This document shows, in pieces, positions 16,356-59,663 of a DNA stretch of 64,000 bases. The number at the start of each line of letters is the position of its first letter. Position 1 is the first letter of the stretch. The position numbers and the translations under genes were made by a program. Under the pieces are notes generated by a model. The model was not told the DNA's origin. It saw only the letters and a list, made by a program, of their open reading frames with translations, and did no database searches. This DNA comes from Flagellimonas chongwuensis (GTDB taxonomy: Bacteria; Bacteroidota; Bacteroidia; Flavobacteriales; Flavobacteriaceae): positions 124,001 to 188,000 of the forward strand of contig NZ_WYET01000004.1 in NCBI RefSeq assembly GCF_013376415.1, in the 5' to 3' direction.

Positions 16356-16398
16356 GTTGTCGGGTGGGGTTATGCTGGTTTTGAAACATTCTATTTTA

Positions 16399-16830: not shown

Positions 16831-16848
16831 TGCCAAAAAGGAACTTCG

Positions 16849-17208
16849 CTAGCTTTTACTCTTTAAGTGCTCTATTCTTTCTTCCTCTCTTTCCTTTAAG
16901 TACCACCATTCGGTATTATCTTTCTTTCTGGTTATTTTTACAGCACCAACCTCGTGAAGAAGTTGTCTTATTTCGTCCTCAGTGTAACCACCAATATTTT
17001 GTTTAAGAGCTTTCATAGAACGATCTATGAACTTTTTGTGCCAAAGTAAATCAGTTAATATTGATTTGACAGTTTCCTTACTTTGATTTTCTAATCGGAA
17101 CATTTCAAAATTATGTTGGAATTGTCTCTTTTGAAGACCATAATTTATCCAGCCCGTTAGCAGTCCTCCAACAACCACTCCTATTAAAGCCCAAATTGCA
17201 TCACTCAT
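16849..17208 (-). CDS. Small single-pass membrane protein of unknown function
   Basis: A 119-residue protein with one N-terminal transmembrane helix rich in glycine (ALIGVVVGGLLTGW, residues ~6-20), then a basic, helix-rich cytoplasmic part with aromatic residues (DLLWHKK, EWWYLKEREEER). I recognise no named family, although similar small TM-plus-helical proteins are frequent in defence islands. It lies alone between module C copy 1 and module D copy 1, i.e. as the sole gene of its block. The start ATG at 17208 is the only one before the TM helix. Confidence 0.65.
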   Translation of the reverse strand: MSDAIWALIGVVVGGLLTGWINYGLQKRQFQHNFEMFRLENQSKETVKSILTDLLWHKKFIDRSMKALKQNIGGYTEDEIRQLLHEVGAVKITRKKDNTEWWYLKEREEERIEHLKSKS

Positions 17209-17239
17209 GTCTTAAAATTTTATGTTAATTCCTTTTATC

Positions 17240-17410
17240 TTTTTTCTTGATAAAAAAGAAACAAAAAATCAAGAAGAAAATATGCTTCCAAGCGCTCTTT
17301 GTGTCTTATAGCTTCGCTATTTGGGCGTAAACGCCCACACACAAAGCCCAGGGCAATGGCTCTTTGTGCCCAGCCACAAATTCACCCCGACGCCGGCCCG
17401 CATTTTCTTC
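17240..17410. repeat. Modular repeat, module D copy 1 (structured)
   Basis: This ~170-bp element recurs at 21983-22158 and 27412-27590. It begins with an inverted TCTTGAT/ATCAAGA pair around an A-rich loop. Then come hairpin arms CTTTGTG (17297-17303), ATAGC/GCTAT (17308-17320) and GGGCG/CGCCC (17323-17336), then CACAAAG (17340-17346), which can pair with either the first CTTTGTG or a second one at 17362-17368. It lies just beyond the 3' end of the helicase gene. Confidence 0.85.
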
Positions 17411-17448
17411 ATTCCATTCATAATAACTTTTTAAGTATTTCTACAATG

Positions 17449-20400
17449 TTATGTATTAAAATAGCACTTCAATTTGGTTTCTGTCATTTCAGCAATAGTT
17501 GAATAAACAGAGCCTAAAAAATCAATCATATCATTTGATAAGTTTTTCCTTTCTACCCCAGGTTGAGCAATTGCAAACTCAAATACAACATCTGTGTACT
17601 TAAGAGCTTTCCTTATTTTTTCAATTTCTTGCAGACTACCGTGGAAAAACCTTTTTTCTCTAAGAACTCCCATGCCATCTCTCCTTTCCATGTGTTTTAA
17701 TAGTTCTTCAGGCTTCCATTTATACCGAAGAGATACTATTGCTTGTCCACATACTTCATATAAATCAGATATTCTTGCTCCAGATTTTTCTTTAGAATAC
17801 TTACAGTGTATTAATTCAAATCGTATAACATCTTCATTAGAAAAAACTGCTATTACATCTGCTTTCTCACCAGAATTATCATCATTAAAAACAACTTTAG
17901 CTCCTCTATTCACAAGTGTATTCATCATGTATTCTTGTATCGAATTTTCTCTTTTAACTCCTGATTTATATAATGACTCAATTCGATAGTTTACGTTCTC
18001 CCATTTGAGTACCTCAATGCGATCTTCAGGTATTTTGTCATATAATGAATCTCCATAATCCGTATGAATACATCCAGAAATTGTACAGCCATTCAATAAA
18101 AACATTGTTGGTGGATTCTCTTCAAAAAACTTTTTTAAAGGCATCGGTTCCATTTTAAGCCCTTCAATGCTATATGTACTATTGTCCAAGCCGTGAACCG
18201 TAAAGCCATTTTCTCCTCCAAGAATTATGGAAAACGTGATTTCTTCATTATATAAAATCAATTTAAAATCAGCTTTCTGTGCTTCACATTTTTGAGTTGT
18301 TAAGGTACACTCGGAGAGTAAAAATGAATGCGAATGAGTTTTCTGTATGGTTAGCTTATGGATTCTCGAATAAAGTTCTTCCGCCCAATCCGTTGCAAGA
18401 ATTATTATTCCTTCCGGAAAGGTCTCCAATTGTATTTTTTTGGCAGAATCTACTAACAATTGATTTGAATCAATGTTTTCATCCGTAATTAATCTACCCA
18501 TATTTAAACACCAGGATTTCCACTCTTTCAAATCTCCTATACGAGCTGGACTCCATAGCTTACCTTTTACCGAAGCTCCTACGCTTACTGGTTCACCATC
18601 TCTAAATCCAATTCCTACGAAATCTGATTTTTTACTTCTTTTGCCTTCCTGCCATCTGCTTAGCTCTGTTGTAACATCCGCTCCGCTTAATCTTGAATAT
18701 CTATGTAATTGATTAGCTGGTTTAAATATTCCTGCATGCACAATGCTTAATCTTTTTATTGAATCAAAAGAACGGAAAACGCAATCTCCTTTAAGCAAAT
18801 TTGGTTCAGCTTTGGTTATTTTTTCAACTAAATAATCAACATCCATTCTTTTTTCCGAATATCCAACATATAACATCTCAGTTTTTGTATCATGATGCAG
18901 TACCACAAGATTCCAAGTTTGATCCTTTAAAGCATCTGTTCTAGCCCATTTTACCTTTTCACGTTTTTGTGTGGTGAAATAAAATATATTTTCTTCTTGG
19001 TTTATATAAGGCTGTGAAAGAGCATATTTTTTTAGGTTGAAAGCATTTTTGAACAATGCCCAATCTACTTTTTTGCAACGATAGGACATACAACTTAAAG
19101 CAGGGTAAACAAGTCTTGGGTTTAACTCTATATCGGGCGAATCAAAACCTGAAAATGGTTTGCAGCCTTGTAGAAATGCTAGTAAAGATTCTGCTTCGGC
19201 TTTTTTTGCATCAGCAATTTCACTTATTACTTTTTCCCATCCAGAACCTTCTTGAAACAAGTTTTCAAGTTCAACAGACATTTTCTCCTCAGCATAGTTT
19301 ACCACAAAAGAAGCATCACCAAGTCCTTCTTTGGGTCTTGTGAATCTTCCAATAAACTGTAAAAGAACTGACAAAGATTTATGTATTCCATGTACGGCAG
19401 CAATTTTAAATTCAGGAAAGTCAAACCCTTCTTTAAGCATTCCGACGCAAACAATTATATCAAATTCTCTTTTCTTAATTTGCTCAATAATTTGTTTTCT
19501 ACCCTTTGTATTTGAATGAATTAAGACAATCTTTTCATCTGGAAACCACTTTTTGTAACTGTGATATAATTTTTCAGCAGGTAATTTTTTTTCTGCTCTT
19601 ACCATCATACAATGGTCCTTCCATCCTTTTTCTCTATCCTGTTTAAGCCTTGCCATAGCAGCATCTGCAATAGCTTTGTCTTTCTTTTTTGGATGACGTT
19701 CATCAACAGTAACCAGTGAGATCTTGGAAAAGCATTCATCCTCCAAAGCTTTAGATAAAGGGTAGTTGTATACCATTTTACCTTCTATTGGCTTACGGTC
19801 GTTTCTATAAGGGGTAGCGGTAAACTGGACAACTTTAGATTTGTTCAAGAGGATTTTAATTTCTTCCCATTCACTAGCGGTAACGTGATGAGCTTCATCA
19901 AAAAACACATGTGTAATAATATTTTTAAGCTTTTCTTTTACTTCTTTAGGAGCCCTAGCAATTAACGCTGGAGTAGATACTATCACATCCGCAGACTCTA
20001 AAAAACTAATTGAGCCTTCATCAGAGATGGTCTTATTTAAAATTATAGTAGTTGGATTTGGAAAATCCTTAGGTATCACACCAAGCTTGCGCAAAATCCC
20101 CCAGTTTTCAAACTTCTCAGCAATTTGTAGTTTTAACTCAACCGTTGGAACTATTACCAATGTTCTTTGTGCCTTATCTGCTAAGGTGGTCACTAACATT
20201 GTTTCAGTCTTTCCTGTTCCGGTAGGCAGAACTATGGTTGAGATTTCATCTGACACGGACCAGTGAGATAGGAGTGCATAAATTGCTCCTTTCTGTGCCG
20301 GTCTCAATTCAAAACCTGAGTCACCTACTCCATTAATGTTTACTTGATGATAGCGTTCTTTATAGTCCCCTATACTACTTTTAACACATCCTTTTATTTT

Positions 20401-20634
20401 ATATTTCCTTTTGTTTTTACCTCTCCCCTTCTCTAATTCAGCTTTAAAAGAAATTCCCTCATGCGTTATGTTGAATGAATCATCTTTATCATGAATAGCA
20501 TTAAAACTTCGTTTTGCCTTTTCAAATGCTAGCTGAGACATTACTCCTATTTTTCTTTTTTCATGCCTGTAGTAAATGGCATCCGTTGTCTGTAGCTGTA
20601 TTTCGTATGGCAAATCCAAAGTCTTTTGTGTCAT
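17449..20634 (-). CDS. SF2 DEAD/DEAH helicase with nuclease-like C-terminus
   Basis: A ~1,061-residue protein starting at ATG 20634 (a TTG five codons upstream is less likely). An N-terminal ~110-residue region precedes the helicase core: Walker A PTGTGKT (about 137-143), DEAHH (about 246-250), FTATP, and motif VI QFIGRFTRP. The middle ~400 residues are not recognised. Near residue 925 the sequence KADVIAVFSNEDVIRFELIHCK resembles a PD-(D/E)XK restriction-nuclease core, but its E-x-K spacing is unusual. Single-gene helicase-nuclease fusions of this size are common in anti-phage islands. It is probably the effector of its own cassette. Confidence 0.8.
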   Translation of the reverse strand: MTQKTLDLPYEIQLQTTDAIYYRHEKRKIGVMSQLAFEKAKRSFNAIHDKDDSFNITHEGISFKAELEKGRGKNKRKYKIKGCVKSSIGDYKERYHQVNINGVGDSGFELRPAQKGAIYALLSHWSVSDEISTIVLPTGTGKTETMLVTTLADKAQRTLVIVPTVELKLQIAEKFENWGILRKLGVIPKDFPNPTTIILNKTISDEGSISFLESADVIVSTPALIARAPKEVKEKLKNIITHVFFDEAHHVTASEWEEIKILLNKSKVVQFTATPYRNDRKPIEGKMVYNYPLSKALEDECFSKISLVTVDERHPKKKDKAIADAAMARLKQDREKGWKDHCMMVRAEKKLPAEKLYHSYKKWFPDEKIVLIHSNTKGRKQIIEQIKKREFDIIVCVGMLKEGFDFPEFKIAAVHGIHKSLSVLLQFIGRFTRPKEGLGDASFVVNYAEEKMSVELENLFQEGSGWEKVISEIADAKKAEAESLLAFLQGCKPFSGFDSPDIELNPRLVYPALSCMSYRCKKVDWALFKNAFNLKKYALSQPYINQEENIFYFTTQKREKVKWARTDALKDQTWNLVVLHHDTKTEMLYVGYSEKRMDVDYLVEKITKAEPNLLKGDCVFRSFDSIKRLSIVHAGIFKPANQLHRYSRLSGADVTTELSRWQEGKRSKKSDFVGIGFRDGEPVSVGASVKGKLWSPARIGDLKEWKSWCLNMGRLITDENIDSNQLLVDSAKKIQLETFPEGIIILATDWAEELYSRIHKLTIQKTHSHSFLLSECTLTTQKCEAQKADFKLILYNEEITFSIILGGENGFTVHGLDNSTYSIEGLKMEPMPLKKFFEENPPTMFLLNGCTISGCIHTDYGDSLYDKIPEDRIEVLKWENVNYRIESLYKSGVKRENSIQEYMMNTLVNRGAKVVFNDDNSGEKADVIAVFSNEDVIRFELIHCKYSKEKSGARISDLYEVCGQAIVSLRYKWKPEELLKHMERRDGMGVLREKRFFHGSLQEIEKIRKALKYTDVVFEFAIAQPGVERKNLSNDMIDFLGSVYSTIAEMTETKLKCYFNT

Positions 20635-20848
20635 TGTAAAATCTAACAATCTTTATTGAGTACATATACCCGTTTAAGGGTATTTATGGGGGAGAAAACA
20701 AAAGGAAGTAAGTTAATAGTTTTGAGTACTTCAATATAGGAATGTATTGTTAAAACGTGTTATAGAAAAACCTTAGAAATTGTAGGGTTTTCCCGCAATT
20801 TTAAGCAACGGGTTCTAACCAGACATAATAAATTTATTGACTTCACAC

Positions 20849-20880
20849 AAAAAATCCTTCCAATATAAATTAGAAGGACT
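20849..20880 (-). terminator. Rho-independent terminator for the 100-residue gene
   Basis: On the minus strand, TCCTTC and GAAGGA arms around a 12-nt A/T loop are followed by a run of six Ts (the A run at 20849-20854 on the plus strand). It lies just after the stop of the 20903-21205 gene. Confidence 0.75.
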
Positions 20881-20902
20881 TTAAATCATATATTAATAAA
20901 TA

Positions 20903-21205
20903 TCAAGCTTTGAGTATAGATAGTCTAGAGGATAATTTTATTAAAAAATTGACATGAGAACATGTTTGAGATACACAATCGAAAATATATTTTTTTGGTA
21001 AACCCAATACTCTGTTTTCAATACTATCAGATAGCATGTTTTGCAAACCATCTACATGGCCTTCCAGAGAATTTACATCGAAATGATCATCAATGATGGC
21101 AATAATTTCAAGGATCGCCTTCTTTTGTTTTGAATCCGTCAAAGAGAGTTCCTTTTTTAATCGTTGGTACCACTCTTCATGGATTTCGTTTTTTCTTGTA
21201 GACAT
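20903..21205 (-). CDS. Hypothetical protein, 100 residues
   Basis: A small, soluble, helix-rich protein with an acidic middle (IAIIDDHFDVNSLEGHVDGLQ) and a C-terminal CVSQTCSHVNFLIKL. I recognise no family. It has its own terminator and lies ~270 bp upstream of the helicase start in the same orientation. It is preceded by a G+C-rich, inverted-repeat-bearing segment (21210-21355) unlike the surrounding A+T-rich DNA. It could be a regulator or partner of the helicase, but nothing in the sequence proves this. Confidence 0.55.
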   Translation of the reverse strand: MSTRKNEIHEEWYQRLKKELSLTDSKQKKAILEIIAIIDDHFDVNSLEGHVDGLQNMLSDSIENRVLGLPKKYIFDCVSQTCSHVNFLIKLSSRLSILKA

Positions 21206-21214
21206 AAAGAAATT

Positions 21215-21355
21215 TTAAAAGCGGAGCCACCCCGTCAGCCCTGTCTACACAGTCTAGGACTGGAAGCGGTACTTTCGCGGCCGCTGGACTTGTAAGCGAC
21301 TCCTTATCGATAAATAATTGTTTTAGAAATTTCCTAAAACTGTGTAGACGCGATA
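21215..21355 (-). ncRNA. Candidate structured RNA or regulatory element
   Basis: In A+T-rich surroundings this ~140-bp segment is G+C-rich and full of inverted repeats. GTCTACACAG (21242-21251) and CTGTGTAGAC (21341-21350) are perfect inverted arms enclosing it. Inside are GTTTTAG/CTAAAAC around a 7-nt loop (21321-21341) and an AGCGG/CCGCT hairpin near 21258-21286. The type is unknown; it lies upstream of the minus-strand 100-residue gene, so it may be its leader. A tRNA was considered and rejected. Confidence 0.35.
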
Positions 21356-21392
21356 AATATACAAATGTTTATAATATACACATGTACTCCTT

Positions 21393-21900
21393 ACCCATTC
21401 CATACACTTTTACCTCCCCCAATTCACGGGTTCGGCAAAATAGTATTCATTACATTTTTTAATAGGAAGATTTTAGCTCAACTTTTCTGGAAGTTTAGGG
21501 AAGTAAGCTTTGCTTTATTCAAAGCAAAGAAACATAACGCGAGAACATTATAGTACAAATGTCGGCGTATTGTATTTTAGAGGTTTCGCCATTAGATAGC
21601 TATAATTCTCCATTATGTAAAATATCCCTCATGTGAGCGTTATTTATTGAAATTTGCAACGGGGTCATTAATATTTTCCAATTCGGTGTGCTGCGCACCG
21701 TTTGTTCTCATTTGTACCATAATTTGTCGTTATATTTAATTGCCGCGCGCAAACGCTCGATTGTTTTGTACATAAAAATGTTAATCACATTTTTCTCTAC
21801 ACACAATTTGCCCACGCTTGCCCCGGCCAAAAGCAAAAATTTTCTGCCCGAATTGAACTATTTTCTTAGTTTGATACTTAGAGAAGAAAAGTTGTTGATA
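21393..21900. repeat. Modular repeat, copy 2 (modules A, B, C)
   Basis: The most complete copy. Module A (21393-21530) opens with CCATTCCATACACTTTTACC and contains a TTCGGCAAAATAGTATT block. It ends with a perfect 9-bp hairpin, CTTTGCTTT/AAAGCAAAG (21508-21529). Module B (21532-21665) has inverted arms ending ACATTATAG and CTATAATTCTCCATTATGT (21600-21618). Module C (21666-21900) has a CGGTG...CACCG hairpin and matches copy 1 closely. No gene is supported in it. Confidence 0.87.
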
Positions 21901-21982
21901 ATCCTGCCCAGAACCCGCATAAGTATAAAATTTGCCCGCAAATTTCCATACACATGCTACTTGAAGTCTATTTGAGGTTTCC

Positions 21983-22158
21983 CTTTCTTTTTTCTTGATA
22001 AAAAAGAAACAAAAAATCAAGAAGAAAATATGCTTCCGCGCGCCCTTTGTGTCTTATAGCTTCGCTATTTGGGCATAAACGCCCACACACAAAGCCCAGG
22101 GCAATGGCTCTTTGTGCCAAGCCACAAATTCACCCCAACGCCGGCCCGCATTTTCTTC
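21983..22158. repeat. Modular repeat, module D copy 2 (structured)
   Basis: Nearly identical to D copy 1, including ATAGC/GCTAT, GGGC/GCCC (one outer pair lost) and the three CTTTGTG-type arms (first 22045-22051, last 22110-22116). It ends ~28 bp before the stop of the DUF6527 gene, i.e. at the 3' end of the minus-strand ubiquitin-like operon. Confidence 0.87.
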
Positions 22159-22185
22159 TGGCCATCCACCTTTATGAGCTTAACA

Positions 22186-22605
22186 TTATTTAAACCAACT
22201 TCTGAATTTTGACCAAATTGATTTATTTTTTACCGGAGAGACTTCATCTAAAATATCTTTATTTTGTTCTTCAGCCGACTTTTCGTAATACTCCTTTTTT
22301 GCGATAAAGTCAGAGTTCTTAACCTCTTCTATTTCTTCTTTACTCCATTGGGTAGACCATTCAATTTTATTCTTTCTAATCCAATAATGAGACTTACAAG
22401 CCAAACTCCAATTGCCAATCGAAGGATAAAGTGAGATTGTTTCTCCATCAAAAGTTACGCTCCATTCGGCAGGTGATAAGGGGGTTACAACCTCATTACC
22501 ACAACCGCAAGCACATTTGTGCATTACTATCTCAAAAGAAATTGAAACATAAATAGTGTCATCTTCCAATTTCTCTGGCATATGTTCAACGAATTCATGC
22601 TTCAT
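22186..22605 (-). CDS. DUF6527 family protein of a ubiquitin-like system
   Basis: A ~139-residue protein, taking ATG 22605 (MKHEFVEHM) as the start; two upstream in-frame ATGs lie further inside the E1 gene. The diagnostic block is MHKCACGCGNEVVTPL, then WSVTFDGETISLYPSIGNW and CKSHYWI. The Cys-x-Cys-x-x-Cys and later Cys/His suggest a bound zinc. From memory, DUF6527 proteins occur beside multi-ubiquitin and ThiF genes in bacteria, but their biochemical role is not settled. It overlaps the E1-like gene by ~11 nt, supporting joint translation. The C-terminal third (basic, KSIWSKFRSWFK) is variable-looking. Confidence 0.78.
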   Translation of the reverse strand: MKHEFVEHMPEKLEDDTIYVSISFEIVMHKCACGCGNEVVTPLSPAEWSVTFDGETISLYPSIGNWSLACKSHYWIRKNKIEWSTQWSKEEIEEVKNSDFIAKKEYYEKSAEEQNKDILDEVSPVKNKSIWSKFRSWFK

Positions 22606-23782
22606 AATCATCATTAAATATTGAGTTGCCATCAATGGAATATAAACTATGCATTTCCTTATCTATGTCATAGTAAAATCCACACATTTTTTTCCATTTA
22701 ATTACTGCCAAGGAAGCATTCAAAGCATTTAGTTCGGCAATCTGAATATTTTGTCCATACTCATCATTTTCATCCCCATCTGCGAAAGAAATCCTTCCTT
22801 TAGAAATTATTTTGTCTATATTCCCCTCATCTGATGAAGTCACTCTGATTATACCAATTAGGGAATTATTCTCTGTAAGCTCGATGCCCATTCCAACATC
22901 AATAAAACTTATTTCTTTTTTACTTAAATATTCAATGATGATTTTTTTAGATTCCCCATTATCAATACATATGAAAACAAAGTCTAAATCATCTAGTTCA
23001 TTCAAATTTGAGGCAATGACATATTTAGAATTAGCTATGATATTGGAATGCATTCTAGAATAGATTCCATACCAATAATCTACCTTTTTAGGTGTTTCTT
23101 TTAATGTTTCTGCTTCAGGTGTGCCTGGAGCACGAAATGCATTATGTAATTGAAATTCATCATTATCAAAAATTCTAATTTCTTTAACCGGACATTTCGA
23201 TATAAAATCAAGCAAATAAGAACCAGTCCCCCCTACTCCTATTATCCCAATTTTATACTTTTCTAATTTAGAAGATATAGCTGAAATGCCAGCTCTACTG
23301 GAATTAGTATCAGGGTAGTTAAATACAGAATTTGAGTTCCCTGATTCAACTAGTCTGAATGTTTTTGGTGTTAAAGTATTATCAATGGAGATTGCTGGAC
23401 CACTGATTATGTTTATATAAGTTGTCATTTTTTGATAGTAGTCCAAATAACCGCCCAATGGTTTATTTGAGAATGACCGATCTACTTCAATGTCTTTGGC
23501 AAGAACAGATTTGTTTTGTCCATGAATTAAAGCAGATATTATAGAGCCATCTTTATTGCACGGTTGTTCGCCTTGAAAATATGCAACATGATTGTTGGGA
23601 CGCCCAGCTTTAATTCCAGAAATTGTCAATACAGAAACCAATGTTCCGAACTTGACTTTCTTGGAATTATCAACATAAGGTATGTTACTTATAAGAATAT
23701 GACTTCCTTTAATTGAAATTTCATATCCCTCATCCCTTAGTCTTTTTAAATCAGGGCTATGATCGATTAGTTTGTGTGACAT
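22595..23782 (-). CDS. E2-like (DUF6791-type)/ThiF E1 fusion of a ubiquitin-like system
   Basis: A 395-residue protein. Residues ~1-150 look like the DUF6791 N-terminal domain, with ISNIPYVDNSKKVKFGTLVS and HVAYFQGEQPCNKDGS, where Cys75 after a conserved His65 is a plausible E2-like catalytic cysteine. Residues ~176-360 are a ThiF/E1 adenylation domain: GVGGTGS (182-188), FDNDEF (205-210), NAFR (214-217) and FVFICIDNGESK (269-279). Such proteins adenylate a beta-grasp partner and may transfer it. The gene overlaps the Ubl gene by 26 nt upstream and the DUF6527 gene downstream. Confidence 0.8.
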   Translation of the reverse strand: MSHKLIDHSPDLKRLRDEGYEISIKGSHILISNIPYVDNSKKVKFGTLVSVLTISGIKAGRPNNHVAYFQGEQPCNKDGSIISALIHGQNKSVLAKDIEVDRSFSNKPLGGYLDYYQKMTTYINIISGPAISIDNTLTPKTFRLVESGNSNSVFNYPDTNSSRAGISAISSKLEKYKIGIIGVGGTGSYLLDFISKCPVKEIRIFDNDEFQLHNAFRAPGTPEAETLKETPKKVDYWYGIYSRMHSNIIANSKYVIASNLNELDDLDFVFICIDNGESKKIIIEYLSKKEISFIDVGMGIELTENNSLIGIIRVTSSDEGNIDKIISKGRISFADGDENDEYGQNIQIAELNALNASLAVIKWKKMCGFYYDIDKEMHSLYSIDGNSIFNDDYEA

Positions 23783-24035
23783 TAAATCTCATTCCATCCT
23801 TAACTACAATTTCATCTCCTTTAACCATAATACCTTCCGGTTTTCCATTATCTCCTTTTTTATACGTTACTGTATATGACACATTGGGGTCTTGTGAAAC
23901 CGAACCAAAAGCAAGTATTACAACTTGATCAAAATTAATTTTCTTTTCTGCCCAAATCTTCTCTCTAGCATTAACCAAAATTTTAAACTCCTTATTTTGC
24001 CCTGGAGCTTCTCCTTTACCTTTATTCTTTTCCAT
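23757..24035 (-). CDS. Single-domain multiubiquitin-family beta-grasp protein (Ubl)
   Basis: A 92-residue protein with a charged N-terminal tail (1-15) and one beta-grasp domain: KEFKILVNAREKIW, FDQVVILAFG, VSYTVTYKKGDNGKPEG, and VVKDGMRFNVTQTNRS at the end. This end matches the bacterial multi-ubiquitin family (FNVT-T-S tail), which often has several repeats but only one here. There is no terminal Gly-Gly. It would be the modifier activated by the E1-like protein encoded next. Spacing of 12 nt after the Panacea gene puts it in one operon with the toxin-antitoxin pair. Confidence 0.8.
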   Translation of the reverse strand: MEKNKGKGEAPGQNKEFKILVNAREKIWAEKKINFDQVVILAFGSVSQDPNVSYTVTYKKGDNGKPEGIMVKGDEIVVKDGMRFNVTQTNRS

Positions 24036-24047
24036 AACTTAATTTTA

Positions 24048-25064
24048 TTAGATAGTCTTAAGGCTAAATCCATAATCCTTATAACTAATTATACTTTGCT
24101 CTTCTTTATTCTCTTTCCAAGCCAACTCTTCATGGCTTAATTCTTTTATTTCATTTGCACTATACCATTTAAACTTATTAGATACCATTCTCATCACATC
24201 AAGTTCAAATTCATCAAAAAGATGTTCGTTGAAAGTCAATTTTGGAACAAAAAATGAACCTTCATAGTCTCGTTCTTCTATATAAACTCTCCTAAGCTGC
24301 TCTCCTTTGCTAATCTCATCATATAATTTTCCATATCTAGAGGGGACAGGGCCATATTGAATAGCCCGATAATCCAATCCAGAAATACCAAACCCAGAAT
24401 TCTTGAATGCTAAAAAGTCAGAATAGAATAGCATTTTATTCAATTTGGTTTTCCAAGTTTCTGCGTTTTCCGAAAAGAAAAGTATCATATGCGAAATTTT
24501 CTCAAGACTTGGCATTTTATAACCAGTATATTGATCTGATGAAATTTTCCCGAATAATTCCTTCATATTCTGATCATGAAATTTGCTGGCTGTTTCAGAG
24601 CTAACCAACTCATCTATAGTCTTATTGATTTTGTGAAAATCTCTAGGGTCGATTAATTCTTGATTTGATATTAAATAAAGTCTAAATGTCTCTGGATCAG
24701 CAGCGCCTAATATTTGTCTTCCATTCCCAACGCTCGGCACCTCTCCCTGTTCATAAAGACGGTAACTATTGGCCCCGAAGCCTAAAATTTCAGACATTTT
24801 TGTTGCCGAAATTTTATATTTCTCTCTAATTTGTTTTATCTGGTCTGGAAAAGGAAGCCCGTATTTATCTCTGTATTGATTGTAAACTTGATTAATATTA
24901 ATAGCATCCAATTCACTAGTTGTGAATTCCTCGCCGGTGTCTTCACAAACATAAAAATGCTCAGTAATTTCAAAGTCATTTTTACGAAACGTTAGATTAC
25001 TCTTCTTTTTCTTCAATATTGCTTGCCCATTAGAAAATGGACTGTCTATTTGATTGTAAATCAT
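24048..25064 (-). CDS. Antitoxin: MqsA-like HTH plus Panacea (SocA/DUF4065) domain
   Basis: A 338-residue protein. Residues ~25-130 resemble MqsA: a partial zinc-finger remnant (FYVCEDTGEEF, with second cysteines missing) and an XRE-type helix-turn-helix (KISATKMSEILGFGANSYRL followed by YEQGEVPS). Residues ~195-335 form a Panacea/SocA domain (MLFYSDFLAF, GLDYRAIQYGPVPSRYGKLYDE). Panacea domains neutralise many unrelated toxins. The 4-nt overlap with the preceding MqsR-like gene fits toxin-first MqsRA order. It should repress its own operon through the palindromes at 25445-25542. Confidence 0.82.
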   Translation of the reverse strand: MIYNQIDSPFSNGQAILKKKKSNLTFRKNDFEITEHFYVCEDTGEEFTTSELDAININQVYNQYRDKYGLPFPDQIKQIREKYKISATKMSEILGFGANSYRLYEQGEVPSVGNGRQILGAADPETFRLYLISNQELIDPRDFHKINKTIDELVSSETASKFHDQNMKELFGKISSDQYTGYKMPSLEKISHMILFFSENAETWKTKLNKMLFYSDFLAFKNSGFGISGLDYRAIQYGPVPSRYGKLYDEISKGEQLRRVYIEERDYEGSFFVPKLTFNEHLFDEFELDVMRMVSNKFKWYSANEIKELSHEELAWKENKEEQSIISYKDYGFSLKTI

Positions 25065-25414
25065 TTTAACGGATATTTTATTGGCCTAACTGGATAATGA
25101 AAGCTAATACATATTACAGGCTTTCCAAATGAGCCTAAAGTAATTTTAATATATATCTCCTTATTCTTTATTTTTTTTCCAAACTCCCACAAATCTGCCC
25201 CACCATTGGAATCTTTGGCGGGTCCCTTATAATAGTCTTTGTATGATAAATTTTTCAAATGCTCTCTAACGGTGACATTAGTCAACTCTAAATCCAACAT
25301 TGTTTGTAGATTGGCGGTTCTTTCTCTCTTTATAATTATACCTACCCCACCTATATTGGCACTAATTTTGGCTCGAAATTCCTGTAAAAACAATTCCACT
25401 TCTTCTTTTGTCAT
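25061..25414 (-). CDS. MqsR-like toxin (predicted RNA interferase)
   Basis: A 117-residue protein with the MqsR family outline: a basic N-terminal half (IIIKRERTANLQTMLDLELT), then LKNLSYKDYYKGPAKDS, LWEFGKKIKNKEIYIKITL, and a terminal CISFHYP. E. coli MqsR is a RelE-fold, GCU-cleaving mRNA interferase of ~98 residues. Lys/Tyr/Arg residues in the DYYKGP and YIKI regions are candidates for catalysis, not shown. The gene overlaps the antitoxin by 4 nt and is the first gene of the operon that continues into the ubiquitin-like genes. Confidence 0.72.
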   Translation of the reverse strand: MTKEEVELFLQEFRAKISANIGGVGIIIKRERTANLQTMLDLELTNVTVREHLKNLSYKDYYKGPAKDSNGGADLWEFGKKIKNKEIYIKITLGSFGKPVICISFHYPVRPIKYPLK

Positions 25415-25444
25415 TCGCTTCTAGATTACAGGATTTTACATATA

Positions 25445-25542
25445 TTCAACTTTACAGTGGCAAATATACGAAATTATTTTAAATAATACTTTAAAGTTGA
25501 TTTTATAAGAAAATATTTATTTTTTTTCAACTTTAAAGTGAC
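25445..25542 (-). promoter_or_regulatory. Operator cluster upstream of the toxin-antitoxin/Ubl operon
   Basis: Three related palindromic motifs lie before the MqsR-like gene: TTCAACTTTACAGTG (25445-25459), ACTTTAAAGTTGA (25488-25500, inverted) and TTTCAACTTTAAAGTGAC (25525-25542). The core ACTTTAAAGT is self-complementary. Spacing of ~40 bp between sites suggests cooperative repression by the HTH-Panacea antitoxin. The assignment is inference from position and symmetry. Confidence 0.6.
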
Positions 25543-25578
25543 ATAAAGCTGCTTTACTCAGCAGTAACAGAGAAATAG

Positions 25579-25791
25579 CTATAATAAGGTAGGTACCAAA
25601 AGCTCACGAATATCCACACCTAGAGCCTCCGCAATTACTCGCAAAGTTTCAAGTGATGGTTGCATTTCATTTGTACACCATCGGGAAACGGTAGTTCTGC
25701 TCTTCCCTACTTTTTCAGCTAGCCATTTATTGGTTCTATCCTGTTCTGCAAGGACTACTCTAATTCTATTGATTGGCTTTTTAGTGCTCAT
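25579..25791 (-). CDS. Small XRE (Cro/C1-type) regulator
   Basis: A 70-residue single-domain helix-turn-helix protein. NKWLAEKVGKSRTTVSRW is the HTH and LETLRVIAEALGVDIREL is the typical following pair of helices. It lies upstream of the toxin operon in the same orientation, separated by ~165 bp that contain the operators. Its own upstream region carries an inverted AAACGAATC/GATTCGTTT repeat, so it is probably self-regulating. The target operon is not known. Confidence 0.85.
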   Translation of the reverse strand: MSTKKPINRIRVVLAEQDRTNKWLAEKVGKSRTTVSRWCTNEMQPSLETLRVIAEALGVDIRELLVPTLL

Positions 25792-25793
25792 AT

Positions 25794-25940
25794 GAATCGT
25801 TTTACGTTAAATCTGTAGCATTTTAAACAAACTTAGTTTTCTAATTCGCATTTAATAATTAACTTTAAACGAATCTTATGATTCGTTTTAGTAATATTAA
25901 ATGTCGTTTTAGTTAATTTTTTAATATTAAAACGATTAAT
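25794..25940. promoter_or_regulatory. Operator cluster between divergent XRE and 75-residue genes
   Basis: The divergent region contains a perfect 9-bp inverted repeat, AAACGAATC-TTAT-GATTCGTTT (25867-25888), plus half-site-like copies GAATCGTTTTACG (25794-25806), GTCGTTTTAG (25903-25912) and AAAACGATTAATT (25928-25940). This is a good candidate binding array for the adjacent XRE protein, controlling both genes. Confidence 0.6.
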
Positions 25941-25983
25941 TATAGTCTTTTACGGTTTTTTCAACAATTAAATAACCAACTAT

Positions 25984-26211
25984 ATGAGATCCACCGAGAT
26001 TAACCTACTCCCCCTACTCTCCTATTTTGAAGAATGCCATGATGGAGATTTACTTTCCTTTACGCAATGGTTGGACAAGGCCATTTATATGTTCCATTAC
26101 CTACCCACGGATTCTTTTTCAGAAACGGAACGCCAAAATGTTTGTCATGTACTCATGAAGTTAAAAGAAGCTGTTCTGAAAATCCATATTGAGCAAAATA
26201 ATTGTGCCTAA
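25984..26211 (+). CDS. Hypothetical protein, 75 residues
   Basis: A small, acidic, soluble protein (LLSYFEECHDGDLLSF, FTQWLDKAIYMFHYLP), likely all-helical. I recognise no family. It is the only plus-strand gene of its cassette and is divergent from the XRE regulator over the palindrome array, so the pair may be regulated together. The regular coding pattern and clean ATG after an A+T-rich leader support expression. Confidence 0.55.
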   Translation: MRSTEINLLPLLSYFEECHDGDLLSFTQWLDKAIYMFHYLPTDSFSETERQNVCHVLMKLKEAVLKIHIEQNNCA

Positions 26212-26212
26212 A

Positions 26213-26775
26213 ACCCATTCCATACACTTTTACCTCCCCTACTCTTTGCAGGTTCGGCAAAATAGTATTAATTACATTTTTAAAAGGAAGTTTTTAGCTC
26301 AACTTTTCAGACGCTACAATTTTTAAAGAATGAGATTCTTTAAAAATTTAGGCGAGTTGGTGCGGTGGAGATAAGCTTTGCTTATACCAAAGCAAAGAAA
26401 CATAACGCGGGAACATTATAGTACAAATGTCGTCATGTTGTATTTTAAGGGTTTCGCCATCCGTAAGCTATAATTTTCCATTATGTAAAATATCCCTCGT
26501 GTGGGCGTCAAGGATTGAAATTTTCAATTTGTCGCTATGTAAAATAGCCGCTCGGCCAACAGCACATTGCTTTCATAAAAAGTAAATGCCCAAGCATTTA
26601 TTTTTATACGCAATTCTCAGCCACTTGGCCAGCGCCATTAAAAGCTCAGCTTTTCGTATTTGTTGAAACCTTTGGTTTAATTGAAAATCTGGAAAAGAAA
26701 AATTTCAGGAAAATCTAGTAAGCTTGTCGCAAAAGCTTAAAATTTAGCGAAGCATAAATTTCCAAGCACTTGCTC
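26213..26775. repeat. Modular repeat, copy 3 (modules A, B and a diverged C)
   Basis: Module A begins with CCATTCCATACACTTTTACC and again has a CTTTGCTT/AAAGCAAAG hairpin before the ACATAACGC junction. Module B matches the other copies up to about 26510. After that the sequence is different (GGCCAACAGCAC, ACGCAATTCTCAGCC) apart from a tail similar to copy 1 (AAAAGCTTAAAATTTAGCG). No gene is supported in this 600-bp stretch. Confidence 0.8.
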
Positions 26776-26836
26776 AAATACTCCCCCTAATTGAAACTTA
26801 TAATTCTGCCTCCTATAATATTATGTCAAATAGAAT

Positions 26837-27058
26837 TTAATGCTCTTCCTGTAGTTTGATATCCCCACAGACTTCTTGTAAGATTTCACAAGGATCTACA
26901 TCAATAGCCAAAGCAATAAGGTACAATTCATCCGCACGAAGCTTCGTAGATTCATTAGAACTCAATTGGCTCATTCGGGATTTACTTATCCCAGTCTTTC
27001 TGGAGACTTCTGCCTTATTTATTGACTTCTTTGCTAGATATAAACCTAGTTTGGTCAT
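26837..27058 (-). CDS. Small XRE regulator
   Basis: A 73-residue single helix-turn-helix protein (KAEVSRKTGISKSRMSQL, then LRADELYLIALAIDVDPCEI). It is distinct in sequence from the 25579-25791 XRE protein. Its upstream region, shared with the divergent 68-residue gene, contains a perfect CTATACT-TT-AGTATAG palindrome (27148-27163), probably its operator. It lies between module C copy 3 and module D copy 3, so it does not share a block with the helicase-nuclease operon. Confidence 0.83.
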   Translation of the reverse strand: MTKLGLYLAKKSINKAEVSRKTGISKSRMSQLSSNESTKLRADELYLIALAIDVDPCEILQEVCGDIKLQEEH

Positions 27059-27147
27059 AAGTGTTTGATTTTTATCAACATAAATATAGATTATGTATAC
27101 ACTTGTATCAAATTTTGCATCAAATGTTTTGATTTTGGATATACATT

Positions 27148-27163
27148 CTATACTTTAGTATAG
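27148..27163. promoter_or_regulatory. Perfect palindrome, likely XRE operator
   Basis: CTATACT and AGTATAG form a 7-bp inverted repeat with a 2-nt spacer in the divergent region between the XRE gene and the 68-residue gene. Similar TATAC/GTATA fragments flank it. It is most likely bound by the adjacent XRE protein. Confidence 0.6.
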
Positions 27164-27198
27164 ATAATCGAAACTATTGTTTAAAAAATATATATTCT

Positions 27199-27405
27199 AT
27201 GGGTAGAAATGGATATACCAAGGCAGATTTAGAACAAATTGTCGGTGCTCAATTGGAGAATTTAAATGCCATGCATGATTTGTTGGCCATAATGAAACTA
27301 CAAAATGAGCTTATTACGAACGCCAATAAGAAACTGAAAGATGAAATTGAGGATTTTAAGAAAAAGATTAAACCTTACCCAACTGGCCACAGAAAAAAAT
27401 CTTAA
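27199..27405 (+). CDS. Hypothetical coiled-coil protein, 68 residues
   Basis: A short, charged, helical protein with a leucine/asparagine heptad pattern (LEQIVGAQLENLNAMHDLL and so on) and a lysine-rich tail. I recognise no family; such small coiled-coil proteins next to an XRE regulator may act as a partner. It ends 7 bp before module D copy 3 begins. Confidence 0.5.
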   Translation: MGRNGYTKADLEQIVGAQLENLNAMHDLLAIMKLQNELITNANKKLKDEIEDFKKKIKPYPTGHRKKS

Positions 27406-27411
27406 TAGGCT

Positions 27412-27590
27412 TTCTATCTTTTGCCTTGATGCAAAAGAAACAAAAAATCAAGAAGAAAATATGCTTCCGCGCGCCCTTTGTGCCTTGTAGCTTTGCTACT
27501 TGGGCGTTTCACGCCCCAACACAAAGCCCAGGGCAATGGCTCTTTGTGTCAAGCCACAAATTCACTCCCCTACTCGCCCGCATTTTCTTC
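27412..27590. repeat. Modular repeat, module D copy 3 (structured)
   Basis: The most diverged D copy. It keeps the CTTTGTG/CACAAAG arms. In place of the ATAGC/GCTAT stem of copies 1 and 2 it has GTAGC/GCTAC (27487-27499), a compensatory change. GGGCG/CGCCC is preserved with a different loop. It ends ~17 bp before the stop of the 140-residue gene at the 3' end of the Gabija-like operon. Confidence 0.85.
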
Positions 27591-27606
27591 AGACCAACAT
27601 CTTTTT

Positions 27607-28029
27607 TTAGACTTCAACTTTTAAAGCAATCTCTTTAAATCGTTTACCCAATAATTCTATCGGTTCATTTTCGGAACAATAATTTAAATCAGACAGCACA
27701 TACACATCTCTTAGTTTAGTTAAACTCTTTATCCATTTTAGATAACTACTCAGATGATTTGCTATTTGCTCTTCAGTTGTGTTTTTCTTTACCAATATTA
27801 CAAATATTAACACTCCATTATTTTTAGTTAAAAAATGGGCAGCTTTAATCATTCCGCCAATAAAGTGTTTCCGACTTGTCCCATGCTCACTTTCCAGAAT
27901 AATATATCGTTCATAATCATCTACTAAAACCAAATCTGGTTTGTATCCGTAAGACAATTGTTGGCCACGATGAGTTACTTGATAACCTTTTGACTTATGG
28001 TTTAATCTTTTGAAATACTTATCTAGCAT
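27607..28029 (-). CDS. Small nuclease-like protein downstream of the Gabija-like pair
   Basis: A 140-residue protein with a possible PD-(D/E)XK core: YKPDLVLVDDYERYIILESE then GTSRKHFIGGMIKAAHFL, resembling restriction-like folds where Asp and Glu bind metal; the usual ExK is not clear. The C-terminal half is helical. It starts 25 nt after the UvrD-like gene ends, in the same orientation, so it is probably the third gene of that operon. I do not recognise it from known Gabija loci. Confidence 0.6.
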   Translation of the reverse strand: MLDKYFKRLNHKSKGYQVTHRGQQLSYGYKPDLVLVDDYERYIILESEHGTSRKHFIGGMIKAAHFLTKNNGVLIFVILVKKNTTEEQIANHLSSYLKWIKSLTKLRDVYVLSDLNYCSENEPIELLGKRFKEIALKVEV

Positions 28030-28054
28030 GATTTATTATAATCACTTTTAAATT

Positions 28055-29944
28055 TTAATTTATAAATTCAATTTCTTCCTTTTGAAACCATTTCATATCA
28101 ACAATATTTCTAGCAAATAGCTCAGGGTTAGATGTGTATGCTACTATAGCAAGACTTTCCTCTGCTCTACTACAGGTTACATAAAGTAATCTTAAGGTTC
28201 TATCCATACTAGTCTCTTTACCCTCATTCATATTTTGAACGTCTGCAGCGGTATGCCCTTTTACTCCAAGAAGTTTTTCAAAATTGAACCAGTTTCCTCG
28301 TGCATCATCATCATCCAATATTACCATGACTCGCTTGAACTCCCTTCCTTTAACACCTTGATGGGTGCCGAAATTGGCCTCATCAATCAAATACTGTTGA
28401 TAAAGCGGTATTTGGTCGAAACTCGCCAAAAGTGCCTCATCCCATGCATCTATTATTAAGTCTTTATCTTCATCCTCTTCTTCCTCAGTTTCTTGAATTA
28501 TTATTAATTCTTCTTGAGTTCTATTCGCTATCGGCACCAATGTATCTGGTATAGCAAAAAGGCGTGAATCTGCGACATTCCTAAGTATATCTAATAACGT
28601 TGGAACCCCATTATCCCATAAATTAAAAAGATTTAATACAGCGTCATTTGCTTTTTCAATTAATACACTTTGCTCTTTAGCTTCTATTAGGGCTACTTTA
28701 CTTATTAACGGAGATTTCTCTTTTACAATTCTAGCAATTTCAAATTTATCATCATTGATCCAAGCATTATACAATGGAAGTATTGTGTTTGTGAAAAACC
28801 TCATTCCTGTAAGGCTGCCATCTAAAGCACCTGTTTTCAATCTACTAGTACTATATAAAGGCAAAAACAAGTTGTCAAACCCCATTCTTTTAGCAGCCAT
28901 ATGATGCTCTAATGTTAGTGTTTTTATCTCTGAATTCTCACCTAGCCATTTCTCATCTTTAGTGATTTCACCCATTTTTATGGCAATTTGTTTTTCAATT
29001 TCTTTTTTATCTGAACATGGAACCTGTACCACAAAAAGCCTAGCGGTACCTTCAATTTTATCACTTCTAGGCTCTTGTTGTTGACCATCTCCTTCTTCTC
29101 TAATTTTATTTATGAGCTTTATAATTCTTTTTGGACATCGATGATTAAGTTTCTTTTTGGGTGTTAACCAATCAGCAGGAATATCACCTTCCAAGTTTTC
29201 TTTCCCATCCAAATAAATACGTTGCATCATATCTCCAATAATTCCTAGTGCGAAGCAATCTTTATGCTGTTTTTGAACTAAAAAAAAAGATTCGATTAAA
29301 TGTTTATTCGTATCCTGACTTTCATCAATTAGAAGTATTGGATATTTTCTAACCAAGATATTCTGCATAAGTTCCTTAGTATTTAGAAAATAAGCTCCTA
29401 ACTCTATAACTTCACTATGGTTCAATGAGTCTTTACTAACATTATCACCATTTGGATTATAAACAAATGCATTTATGTTTTTGAGTATCGATAACCTTTT
29501 ACTTTTTGATTCTATTTTTTTTGCTCTATCGATAAAGGATTTATTCATCCCACGAGCCCTACTCTGTTTATCTTCTAAGTCGGCAATTTCATCTTTTAAT
29601 TTATTTTTTAACCAATCTTTTATATCTGTAGTAAAATGTTTGATTAGGTTCCAAGTAAAACTATGAATAGTAGAGACACTAAATAATGGGTCATAATCAA
29701 TTCTACTCTTTATCTCATCACATGCCGCATTCGTATAGGTAATTATTGCAATCTTTTGATTGTTTAGTTTTAAATTTTCATCGTGCTCTTTTTTGATGAA
29801 CTTTAGCACGTTAATTAACGTTCTAGTTTTACCAGAACCTGCACCCGCAAAAAGGAAAAAACTCTTTGGGTTATTGAAATCCAAGTTTTTCTGAATTTCT
29901 TGTTCTACAACATCATCAATATTTACATTTGATTCCAACTCCAT
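28055..29944 (-). CDS. gajB: UvrD/Rep-family helicase, GajB-like
   Basis: A 629-residue SF1 helicase with all main motifs: FAGAGSGKT (Walker A, 32-40), ITYTNAACDEI (Ia), LLIDESQD (II), IGDMMQRIY (III), LNHRCP (IV region), TLEHHMAAKR, VKGREFKRVMV (V) and RLLYVTCSRA (VI). In Gabija systems GajB senses or unwinds DNA next to GajA. Typical GajB is ~500 residues, so this is somewhat longer. It starts 7 nt after the GajA-like gene ends, so the pair is one transcription unit. Confidence 0.82.
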   Translation of the reverse strand: MELESNVNIDDVVEQEIQKNLDFNNPKSFFLFAGAGSGKTRTLINVLKFIKKEHDENLKLNNQKIAIITYTNAACDEIKSRIDYDPLFSVSTIHSFTWNLIKHFTTDIKDWLKNKLKDEIADLEDKQSRARGMNKSFIDRAKKIESKSKRLSILKNINAFVYNPNGDNVSKDSLNHSEVIELGAYFLNTKELMQNILVRKYPILLIDESQDTNKHLIESFFLVQKQHKDCFALGIIGDMMQRIYLDGKENLEGDIPADWLTPKKKLNHRCPKRIIKLINKIREEGDGQQQEPRSDKIEGTARLFVVQVPCSDKKEIEKQIAIKMGEITKDEKWLGENSEIKTLTLEHHMAAKRMGFDNLFLPLYSTSRLKTGALDGSLTGMRFFTNTILPLYNAWINDDKFEIARIVKEKSPLISKVALIEAKEQSVLIEKANDAVLNLFNLWDNGVPTLLDILRNVADSRLFAIPDTLVPIANRTQEELIIIQETEEEEDEDKDLIIDAWDEALLASFDQIPLYQQYLIDEANFGTHQGVKGREFKRVMVILDDDDARGNWFNFEKLLGVKGHTAADVQNMNEGKETSMDRTLRLLYVTCSRAEESLAIVAYTSNPELFARNIVDMKWFQKEEIEFIN

Positions 29945-29950
29945 TTGCTT

Positions 29951-32155
29951 TTAAAGATTTTGACTTTTTGACAAACTTTCTTCTAGCCAAATTAATCCTT
30001 CTTCTATGTATTTCGGCACTTTCAATTTATTTAGGTCATCTAGAAAAAGTAAGTCTAATGCAAAAGCTGCTTTATCCCCAGAGGCACTTTTTCTCAATGT
30101 TTCATAAACATCTTTTTCAAAGTTTTCTACTGTAGATTCGACTATAGTGTTTTTGAATTTTCTGATTAGTCTTAACCCCTCCATTGACTTAAATTGGACA
30201 ATATTTTCATACACAAGTGAGTCTTCAAAGCTTGTTGCATTAACAGTCGTCTCCTTTTTATCATTATCCACGGTAATTTTTTGATTAATTTGATATGCAA
30301 CTCTAATTAGACCGCTTGTAGTAACTTTAGCTTTAGAATCTAAATCAATTAAGGAATCTAAAGATTTAACTCCTGGCACCCATTTTGAAATGGTACTATT
30401 GGCGGTTTCGTAGCCTTTGTTTTTTTTAGGTATTACCGAAGTTCTGTTGTTAGTTGGGTCAATAGGGTCGAGATCGGTAACAATTAAAGTTAAAACTCCA
30501 AGATCTTCAATTAGAGATTGAAGCTTATGAGCATGACTCCCAGCAATTTCAACCAATGACAGGTAGGATTTAGACAAGTTTTTATGATGATTATTAATAA
30601 AATGAGGAATTAGCATTCTTTCAGCCGCTCCTTCTATAAGTATAACCGCATCAGCAAAAAACAAATCACAATGAGTTGTTTTTAAATATCGGGTTGCAAA
30701 CCTTGTTGTTGCATTTTCGTCCCCGAAAGTTTTTGACAAGTTAATTACCTTAGAAGTAGCCACGTTTTGTCCAGTTGCCAATAATCGTTTAAAGTATCTC
30801 AAACAAACAAAATCAACTTCGTGTGCAATGTGGTTAGAATGAGTACTTACAATTAACTGTGTAGTAAATTTTTTATTTTTCCCTAGATTTTTATGAGCTC
30901 TTAAAATATCGTATGCTTTGTTAATGAAAACTTGTTGCACCTGTGCATGCAAATGGGCTTCAGGCTCTTCAATTAGAACTAGATGTAGGGGCTCATAAAT
31001 CTCGTTTTCATCATCACTTTTAGATCTTTTCCCAACCTTCATCCACTCATCTCTAAACCTAATAAGTTCAAATACCATGGATATTAAATTTTGATAACCA
31101 AGACCGTTCGTTTGTTCAGGAAGTGAAAGCAAAGTCTTCTTTCCTTCCTTATCTTTCATTATTTCAAACTGAATTGCAGAATCATGACTAATACCATCTA
31201 TTGGAGAAATTGAACTTGAAATTGTAATGTTTGGATTACCAAATCCAGGATAATTCAAATCACCCAATTCATTCAAAGATGGTCCAAAGCGATCTTTCAA
31301 TTTGTCATCAAAAGCCTTTTTTGCATTATCAATAGCAGTCAATGCCCCCAAATCATCATCTGTTGGTTTATCCTCTGGGCTAAGATGCTTACTGTAATAA
31401 TCTCTAAATTGAGTTGATAGAGGCTTTAACTTGTGATTTGAATTATTGACATCAGAAAATCCTCTTTGTGCATTGATTGTACTCACCTTTATTAGTCCTT
31501 TAAAGGAATCATTATCAATAGGAATACTTCCAGGCATTAATTCTTGAGCTAGTTGATTTTGATCTTTGAAATCACCTACTTTTGCTGGATCTAAAATGTA
31601 TGACTTTATAGTAAATAGTTTTGGCAACTTCGATTTATGGTCTAGGAAATCCCACATATCTTTTGGCCACAATTTTAATTTAGATTTTTCTCCAAGCTTT
31701 GTAGCAGCATCATAATCACTCTTAAATTCTATCAGCAGACTTTCTAAATTAATTGGTTCATATCTAAGTCTAATACCTAAAAGACCACTTTTCCAATCGA
31801 GGGTTGGTATTAAGTGATGTACATAATGTAACTCTTTATCACTTACATTTAGCCATAAATCAATTTGAGGAAGAAAACAAGCTAGTTCCTCTAATTGCTT
31901 GTCCCAATATTCATCATTTTTGTTATCATCAGCTAGCCATATTTCAGCCAGTTTATTAATTTCAAGCCAATTATTTAGAGTGAAATCGCGAGTTGAGAAC
32001 TTATTTTTATCAGTCAAAAAAAAAGACAGAGAATCCATTGCGGAAGTCTTGCCACTGTTATTAGGGCCAACAAAAATTGTTTGCTCATTGCCTATATCAA
32101 TTCGACACGCTTTAAGTTTTCTAAAATTCTGAATATCAATGAAATTAAGTTCCAT
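29951..32155 (-). CDS. gajA: OLD-family ATPase/TOPRIM nuclease, GajA-like
   Basis: A 734-residue protein. The ABC-type ATPase part has GPNNSGKTS (Walker A, 30-38), a Q/signature region, LVLIEEPEAHLHAQ (Walker B) and LIVSTHSNHIAHEV (H-loop). The TOPRIM domain follows with VILIEGAAERM (Glu near 505) and LTLIVTDLDPID (Asp pair near 560). This is the GajA/OLD arrangement, in which nucleotide binding restrains a DNA-nicking nuclease. It is longer than classical GajA (~580). Together with the next gene it forms a Gabija-like anti-phage module. Confidence 0.82.
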   Translation of the reverse strand: MELNFIDIQNFRKLKACRIDIGNEQTIFVGPNNSGKTSAMDSLSFFLTDKNKFSTRDFTLNNWLEINKLAEIWLADDNKNDEYWDKQLEELACFLPQIDLWLNVSDKELHYVHHLIPTLDWKSGLLGIRLRYEPINLESLLIEFKSDYDAATKLGEKSKLKLWPKDMWDFLDHKSKLPKLFTIKSYILDPAKVGDFKDQNQLAQELMPGSIPIDNDSFKGLIKVSTINAQRGFSDVNNSNHKLKPLSTQFRDYYSKHLSPEDKPTDDDLGALTAIDNAKKAFDDKLKDRFGPSLNELGDLNYPGFGNPNITISSSISPIDGISHDSAIQFEIMKDKEGKKTLLSLPEQTNGLGYQNLISMVFELIRFRDEWMKVGKRSKSDDENEIYEPLHLVLIEEPEAHLHAQVQQVFINKAYDILRAHKNLGKNKKFTTQLIVSTHSNHIAHEVDFVCLRYFKRLLATGQNVATSKVINLSKTFGDENATTRFATRYLKTTHCDLFFADAVILIEGAAERMLIPHFINNHHKNLSKSYLSLVEIAGSHAHKLQSLIEDLGVLTLIVTDLDPIDPTNNRTSVIPKKNKGYETANSTISKWVPGVKSLDSLIDLDSKAKVTTSGLIRVAYQINQKITVDNDKKETTVNATSFEDSLVYENIVQFKSMEGLRLIRKFKNTIVESTVENFEKDVYETLRKSASGDKAAFALDLLFLDDLNKLKVPKYIEEGLIWLEESLSKSQNL

Positions 32156-58726: not shown

Positions 58727-58742
58727 TTATAAAGTTGCTCAA

Positions 58743-59660: not shown

Positions 59661-59663
59661 TTT

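Follow-up and report, generated by a model that had tools for sequence, protein, structure and literature searches.

Why a predicted toxin-antitoxin (TA) pair should head a predicted bacterial ubiquitin-like (Ubl) protein tagging set is the question raised by an operon of Flagellimonas chongwuensis. The operon lies on the minus strand at 22186..25414 of the window, which is the whole stretch of 64,000 nucleotides (nt) analyzed here (contig NZ_WYET01000004.1, positions 124,001 to 188,000). The five-gene set is real, recurrent and co-inherited, and its TA pair diverged in step with the tagging set. The data point first to a TA pair that sits in the place of a regulator, rather than to Ubl control of the TA pair. 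We lean toward a reading in which one switch, the antitoxin, governs both arms of a response to stress or phage, with the TA pair in the controller place.

The five-gene operon and its relatives

The open reading frame (ORF) list of the window gives five minus-strand ORFs, listed here 5' to 3', and all five assignments rest on ORF and Pfam.

25061..25414, minus strand: MqsR-like toxin, 117 amino acids (aa)
24048..25064, minus strand: antitoxin, 338 aa, with a diverged MqsA-like N-terminus, a helix-turn-helix (HTH) and a C-terminal Panacea domain
23757..24035, minus strand: single Multi_ubiq ubiquitin-like protein, 92 aa
22595..23782, minus strand: DUF6791-ThiF (E1-like) protein, 395 aa
22186..22635, minus strand: DUF6527 protein with a predicted metal site

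The junctions along the operon are -4, +12, -26 and -41 nt, where the last assumes a TTG start for the DUF6527 gene and in-frame ATGs, taken from the translation, would bring it to -38 to -11. The gene order and the exact -4 and -26 overlaps are kept in two other genomes, namely at locus L120, on a 1,309,483-base contig (G505 contig 2) where all five genes stand in order and are 62-80% identical to those of the window, and at locus L002 of a Bacteroidota metagenome-assembled genome (MAG). Because order and overlaps recur while the proteins of these two loci are 53-80% identical to those of the window, the arrangement is not a product of chance. An earlier note on this DNA had claimed this gene order in a single tightly packed set, and had named absence from other genomes as grounds for rejection; the gene calls agree with it and the co-localization is conserved.

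A scan of genome contigs returned 41 E1 relatives, and the Ubl, E1 and DUF6527 genes occur together at 39 of these loci; at the remaining two the contig stops before the Ubl gene. Only one of the 41, L002 (E1 65% identical), carries toxin and antitoxin genes. Further E1 searches covered overlapping sets of 99, 397, 395 and 395 whole genomes. Including the window and two plasmids, the tally came to 76 loci with 70 distinct E1s, and 62 of these come with an upstream stretch of 2.5 kb or more. Left out of the tally were 120 of 122 plasmid records, weak ThiF matches, the genomes G390 and G410 with split E1 frames, and G1206. The TA pair is present at all three distinct loci with at least 60% E1 identity (window, L120 and L002) and at none of the 59 below 60%. 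An M78 peptidase gene within 3.5 kb upstream, on either strand, shows the reverse distribution, with 0 of 3 TA-type loci and 40 of 59 others (M78 was assigned by custom profiles, and Pfam confirmed four of four proteins tested). WYL was found at 1 of the 59 loci without the TA pair. The Multi_ubiq/DUF6791-ThiF/DUF6527 core is widespread, and the MqsR-like toxin with its MqsA/Panacea antitoxin is the unusual part.

Several observations on these loci stand apart from this comparison. At six M78 loci (L018, L019, L020, L022, L035 and L122) a divergent protein of 174-227 aa lies between the M78 and Ubl genes; it looks sigma-factor-like by eye, and the three that were tested gave no Pfam match. DUF6791 and ThiF fall in separate matches at G390:C9:93741-94932 and G410:C1:2758164-2759328, which may be split genes or broken copies. 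At three loci from same-genus genomes (L053, L059 and L061) there are Ubl sets in which DUF6527 accompanies a longer, distant E1; none of them gave a DUF6791 match, and JAB matched in L053 only. L012 and L013 are apparently one 92,608-base contig filed under both Pontibacter mangrovi and Amaricoccus solimangrovi; size, place and ORFs are the same, which points to probable contamination of one of the two assemblies. In viral contigs, pattern scans that reach close relatives only found no relative of the E1 or the antitoxin.

Linkage beyond the three operons was assessed from identical contig sizes across the toxin, E1 and antitoxin lists (best 119 matches each, the query not counted), using the longest contig of each protein cluster. 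Among those matches there were 12 toxin-E1, 13 antitoxin-E1 and 14 toxin-antitoxin pairs of identical size, compared with means of 0.65, 0.87 and 0.94 in shift controls (maxima 6, 5 and 4). This suggests that an E1 shares its contig with a toxin or antitoxin gene in at least 16 distinct cases, six of them with both; three doubtful size matches (1652, 2210 and 4039 nt) were left out, and linked contigs of 3-5 kb are less certain. One of the size matches, the 1,309,483-base contig, was then read and proved to be that of L120 with its complete operon. The method can miss links, because the contig of L002 (65,543; in the E1 list) was unmatched. Distances among linked copies correlate for toxin and E1 (Mantel r 0.80, n=13, p 2e-4), for antitoxin and E1 (Mantel r 0.74, n=13, p 2e-4) and for toxin and antitoxin (r 0.57, n=8, p 0.004). 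In a midpoint-rooted FastTree phylogeny of 183 E1s, the linked E1s fall inside a 75-leaf clade (support 0.989) that holds no read locus without the TA pair, neighborhoods having been read for a minority of its 75 members. Likewise, in a tree of 131 antitoxins, 13 linked copies fall in a 37-leaf clade (support 0.999) with none of the 81 more distant antitoxins inside.

The predicted tagging core and the TA family

Pfam assigns the Ubl to Multi_ubiq (4.2e-14); its C-terminus is TNRS, with no diglycine. The E1-like protein matches DUF6791 (7.7e-55) and ThiF (3e-12), no JAB domain was found in it by Pfam, and PADLOC E1-E2 models match its ThiF part alone, weakly. H65 and C75 of the DUF6791 part are invariant in 26 aligned sequences. 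The earlier note had called this protein an E2-E1 fusion. DUF6791 gave no E2 match by profile or Pfam and the E2 label is unproven; the fold comparison barely probed the DUF6791 part, as its match list was filled by the E1 part. The five-gene set contains no separate E2-like (BubB) gene, and no CD-NTase as in type II CBASS (cyclic oligonucleotide-based antiphage signaling system) was found among the five proteins in Pfam, NCBIfam and PADLOC scans.

Bub conjugation is reportedly an oxyester chemistry. Y342 of the E1-like protein is present in 39 of 39 aligned E1s and aligns with a Tyr in four of five longer same-genus E1s, and a PDB title names a BubCD Y370F mutant. Y342 is a candidate oxyester-type active site, and is taken as a lead because the spacing differs (47 compared with 62 and 64). 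The DUF6527 protein (Pfam, 1.7e-26) has invariant C41, C43, C45, C80 and H83 in 25 aligned sequences, which form the predicted metal site. C41-x3-C45 agrees with the C-x3-C given by Iyer et al. 2006 (PMC1779556), whereas the second pair is C80-x2-H83 instead of their H-x2-C. An E3 role for DUF6527 is not claimed, since no known fold matched its predicted model significantly (best E 0.45).

On the TA side, Y88, K90 and H106 of the toxin are invariant in 36 aligned sequences. PF15723 is annotated in the database for some close relatives of this toxin, and its PDB sequence matches include no MqsR. The antitoxin matches SocA_Panacea (8.9e-19), falls below the Pfam cut-off for MqsA (9.6e-5, 22.9 bits; cut-off 30) and lies slightly under that of the NCBIfam MqsA family (58.5 bits; cut-off 61.8). 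Its gene directly adjoins the toxin gene, which is the arrangement of MqsRA and PanAT pairs. The zinc-binding N-terminus of MqsA has four cysteines; the window antitoxin has lost three of the four and keeps C40, a cysteine shared by all 50 near relatives and by 80 of the 81 more distant ones.

Most members of this TA family stand alone. Antitoxin matches occur in 48 of 395 genomes searched from the phylum, and 30 loci from these 48 were read, three of which are short fragments. A nearly whole antitoxin is present at 26 loci (that of the window excluded), with a toxin gene alongside in 21, one of these pairs being broken. No Ubl, E1 or DUF6527 gene lies near the antitoxin at any of the 26, two of which show almost no downstream sequence. 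Three plasmid copies of the antitoxin agree in having no gene of the Ubl set, and one of them adjoins a CBASS pair.

The control region and the antitoxin as a probable switch

Upstream of the toxin gene, a motif scan and reading by eye gave the following features.

25448..25459, minus strand: operator-like site 1 (AACTnTAAAGTT, 1 mismatch), motif scan
25487..25498, minus strand: operator-like site 2 (AACTnTAAAGTT, 1 mismatch), motif scan
25529..25540, minus strand: operator-like site 3 (AACTnTAAAGTT, 1 mismatch), motif scan
25461..25468, minus strand: TATATTTG, putative -7 promoter element, Bacteroidota type, read by eye

The last label follows what we take to be the -33/-7 promoter consensus of Bacteroidota. 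The motif AACTnTAAAGTT is near-palindromic, and with at most one mismatch it recurs upstream of the toxin in all three linked copies and in 15 of the 23 that stand alone, compared with shuffle means of 0.07 and 0.27. Adjacent sites are 39-42 nt apart in the three linked copies. Over the 300 nt that precede the Ubl gene, the three operons show no AACTnTAAAGTT site within one mismatch, though two of them carry one with two mismatches, and a simple promoter pattern has no match there; the earlier note had named separate promoters between the TA and Ubl genes as grounds for rejection. At seven loci without the TA pair, the 200 nt before the Ubl gene likewise hold no site within one mismatch. Sites before the toxin and none within one mismatch before the Ubl gene fit an antitoxin that controls one five-gene promoter, and we infer from these sequences that the antitoxin may bind at the AACTnTAAAGTT sites.

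Our best reading is that the TA pair has come to occupy the place of a controller, which elsewhere belongs to pairs of the CapH/CapP type. The MqsR-like/MqsA-Panacea pair stands in the slot where most related read sets carry an M78 peptidase, itself a likely regulator, and the antitoxin would repress the one promoter that drives all five genes. In quiet cells the antitoxin would be bound to the toxin and to the paired AACTnTAAAGTT sites, and the operon would be kept low. A trigger, such as phage attack or another stress, possibly sensed by the Panacea domain, would remove or alter the antitoxin. The freed toxin would then cut mRNA, while Ubl, E1 and DUF6527 would rise at the same time and the Ubl would be attached to target proteins. 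Panacea has been proposed as a sensor in an MqsA-HTH-Panacea antitoxin of Bacillus fungorum that neutralizes MqsR (PMC10440598).

A number of points weigh against the antitoxin as such a switch. The toxin is below the Pfam cut-off for MqsR_toxin (1.9e-4, 22.2 bits; cut-off 26.2), and the part that neutralizes MqsR in B. fungorum is the zinc-binding one (PMC10440598), which has lost three of four cysteines here; one MqsR-PanA pair gave no rescue (PMC8832971). The slot is not always filled, as neither M78, WYL nor a TA pair is found at 18 of the 59 unlinked loci. Complete operons were read at three loci, linkage on the remaining contigs is judged from equal sizes, and the distance correlations could stem partly from shared host descent. 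The motif AACTnTAAAGTT was picked after the upstream sequences had been viewed, its control was a mononucleotide shuffle, and several of the stand-alone toxin copies that carry it are near-duplicates. Across the whole window its count does not exceed chance, with 6 strand matches where 3.3 are expected and 15 of 100 shuffles reaching as high. The full -33/-7 pattern matches upstream in L120 and L002 and not in the window. Finally, a 2026 study (PMC13373217) states that Bub operons are not known to protect against phage.

Alternatives, genomic setting and known systems

The alternative closest to the proposal of the earlier note is a single machine in which attachment of the Ubl to the antitoxin or toxin, or its loss, decides toxin activity. 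We consider this unlikely, and its fuller version as an immune system, in which a Ubl tag on the Panacea antitoxin or MqsR toxin would decide between growth and abortive RNA decay, still less likely. Co-divergence of TA pair and E1 speaks for it, the cyclase encoded beside E1-E2 in type II CBASS does undergo ubiquitin-like conjugation (PMC10449767), and the linked copies are enriched in two candidate acceptor lysines, K98 of the toxin (14 of 14 linked compared with 4 of 19 stand-alone) and K299 of the antitoxin (13 of 13 compared with 5 of 19). However, clade-specific residues arise through descent alone, the linked-specific positions are mostly not lysine, and the same core occurs without this TA pair at 59 of 62 loci.

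The surroundings of the operon bear on a second alternative. A Gabija pair (GajB 28055-29944, GajA 29951-32155) lies next to the operon in the same island at 28055-32155, which gives the operon a defense-island setting. Beside the operon, 17449-20649 encodes a 1066-aa DEAD/ResIII helicase that is weakly RadD- and PbeA-like. The island (16361-34668) contains non-coding repeat families of 60-256 nt, 62-95% alike, between its cassettes, and 21383-22180 matches eight places of its own genome, all within the island. These repeats recur in same-genus genomes (the L209-L212 loci) with different cargo between copies, and in G015 repeat copies lie directly beside the same left-flank genes as in the window. 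PADLOC models match 5 of 10 tested cargo proteins between repeats. The island looks like a variable hotspot of repeat-bounded exchangeable cassettes. A second defense-like cluster lies apart from it at 58094-63484, with HNH-nuclease-like, type II methyltransferase, ZorD-like helicase and HNH effector-like proteins.

A variable hotspot would suit a TA pair that merely prevents loss of the Ubl cassette, and such stabilization was proposed for the DUF955-type TA next to multiubiquitin genes on a Synechocystis plasmid (PMC4963859). A stabilizer requires no shared transcript, single partner type or long co-divergence, though, and a functional unit better explains both the clade structure and the spacing of the genes (-4, then -13 to +17 nt). 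Additionally, where CapH+CapP pairs accompany other immune operons, they serve as DNA-damage regulators (PMC13373217), and we regard mere addiction as quite doubtful. Neutral co-transcription of a TA pair that landed once at the head of the Ubl set and was carried along without a functional tie is the most improbable of the alternatives: the mostly stand-alone TA family and its 26 loci without a Ubl gene are in its favor, but another genus and a Bacteroidota MAG have kept all five genes, 53-80% identical, which is unlikely if neutral, and TA and E1 are kept together on other contigs, judged by equal sizes.

As a small natural gene set, the operon lets two questions be asked together, namely what bacterial multiubiquitin systems do and how they are switched, and what Panacea senses. 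Should the antitoxin prove to repress the operon, triggers of Panacea could be found by following the Ubl genes.

The earlier note knew of no published description of this operon. No MqsR-Panacea-Ubl operon was recognized among the papers listed from the literature searched, which covers few subscription papers, and none is described in the passages of PMC11980606, which places MqsR among RelE/ParE toxins, or of PMC11354881. TA-like loci of another type (HTH with COG2856/DUF955) beside multiubiquitin genes were described in 2016, with 70% of PF14452 genes adjoining COG2856/DUF955-type TA loci (PMC4963859). The operon is a new version of this already reported theme. It shares with the pSYSX cassette of Synechocystis a TA-type pair beside the Ubl set, but the partner in that cassette is of the COG2856/DUF955 kind, and in the window the genes for an MqsR-like toxin and a Panacea antitoxin run in the same direction as the Ubl gene, closely packed against it.

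The type 6e multiubiquitin operon class was described by Iyer et al. 2006 (PMC1779556), in which some E1s have an uncharacterized N-terminal domain that replaces JAB. In the broad sense of type 6e, the window shares a Multi_ubiq gene beside an E1-like gene and a small protein with a predicted Cys/His metal site (DUF6527). It differs from type 6e/Bub (BubA, BubB, BubCD) in having an N-terminal DUF6791 in place of JAB, no separate E2-like gene, and a TA pair in front. The MqsR:PanA pairs (PMC10440598, PMC8832971), which include validated ones (PMC10440598), likewise combine an MqsR-like toxin and an MqsA-HTH-Panacea antitoxin; in the window and its aligned relatives three of four zinc cysteines are gone, and in the operon three Ubl genes follow.

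The closest parallel in position is given by the Cap controllers. CapW or CapH+CapP are found at 219 of 544 Bub operons and CapK+CapS at 59, and in VapKSC relatives of the regulator pair act as a phage-protective TA (PMC13373217). The TA pair of the window holds a like position to CapH+CapP, CapW and CapK+CapS, which stand before Ubl/Bub and other immune operons. Those controllers are a peptidase, WYL or kinase; the window pair has none of these, and the M78 (ImmA-type) peptidase of CapH+CapP is absent beside the Ubl set at all three TA-type loci. Here the controller would itself carry the toxin. If so, the controller slot before Ubl operons could be filled by a true TA pair, and in bacterial immunity regulator and effector would be less clearly separate.

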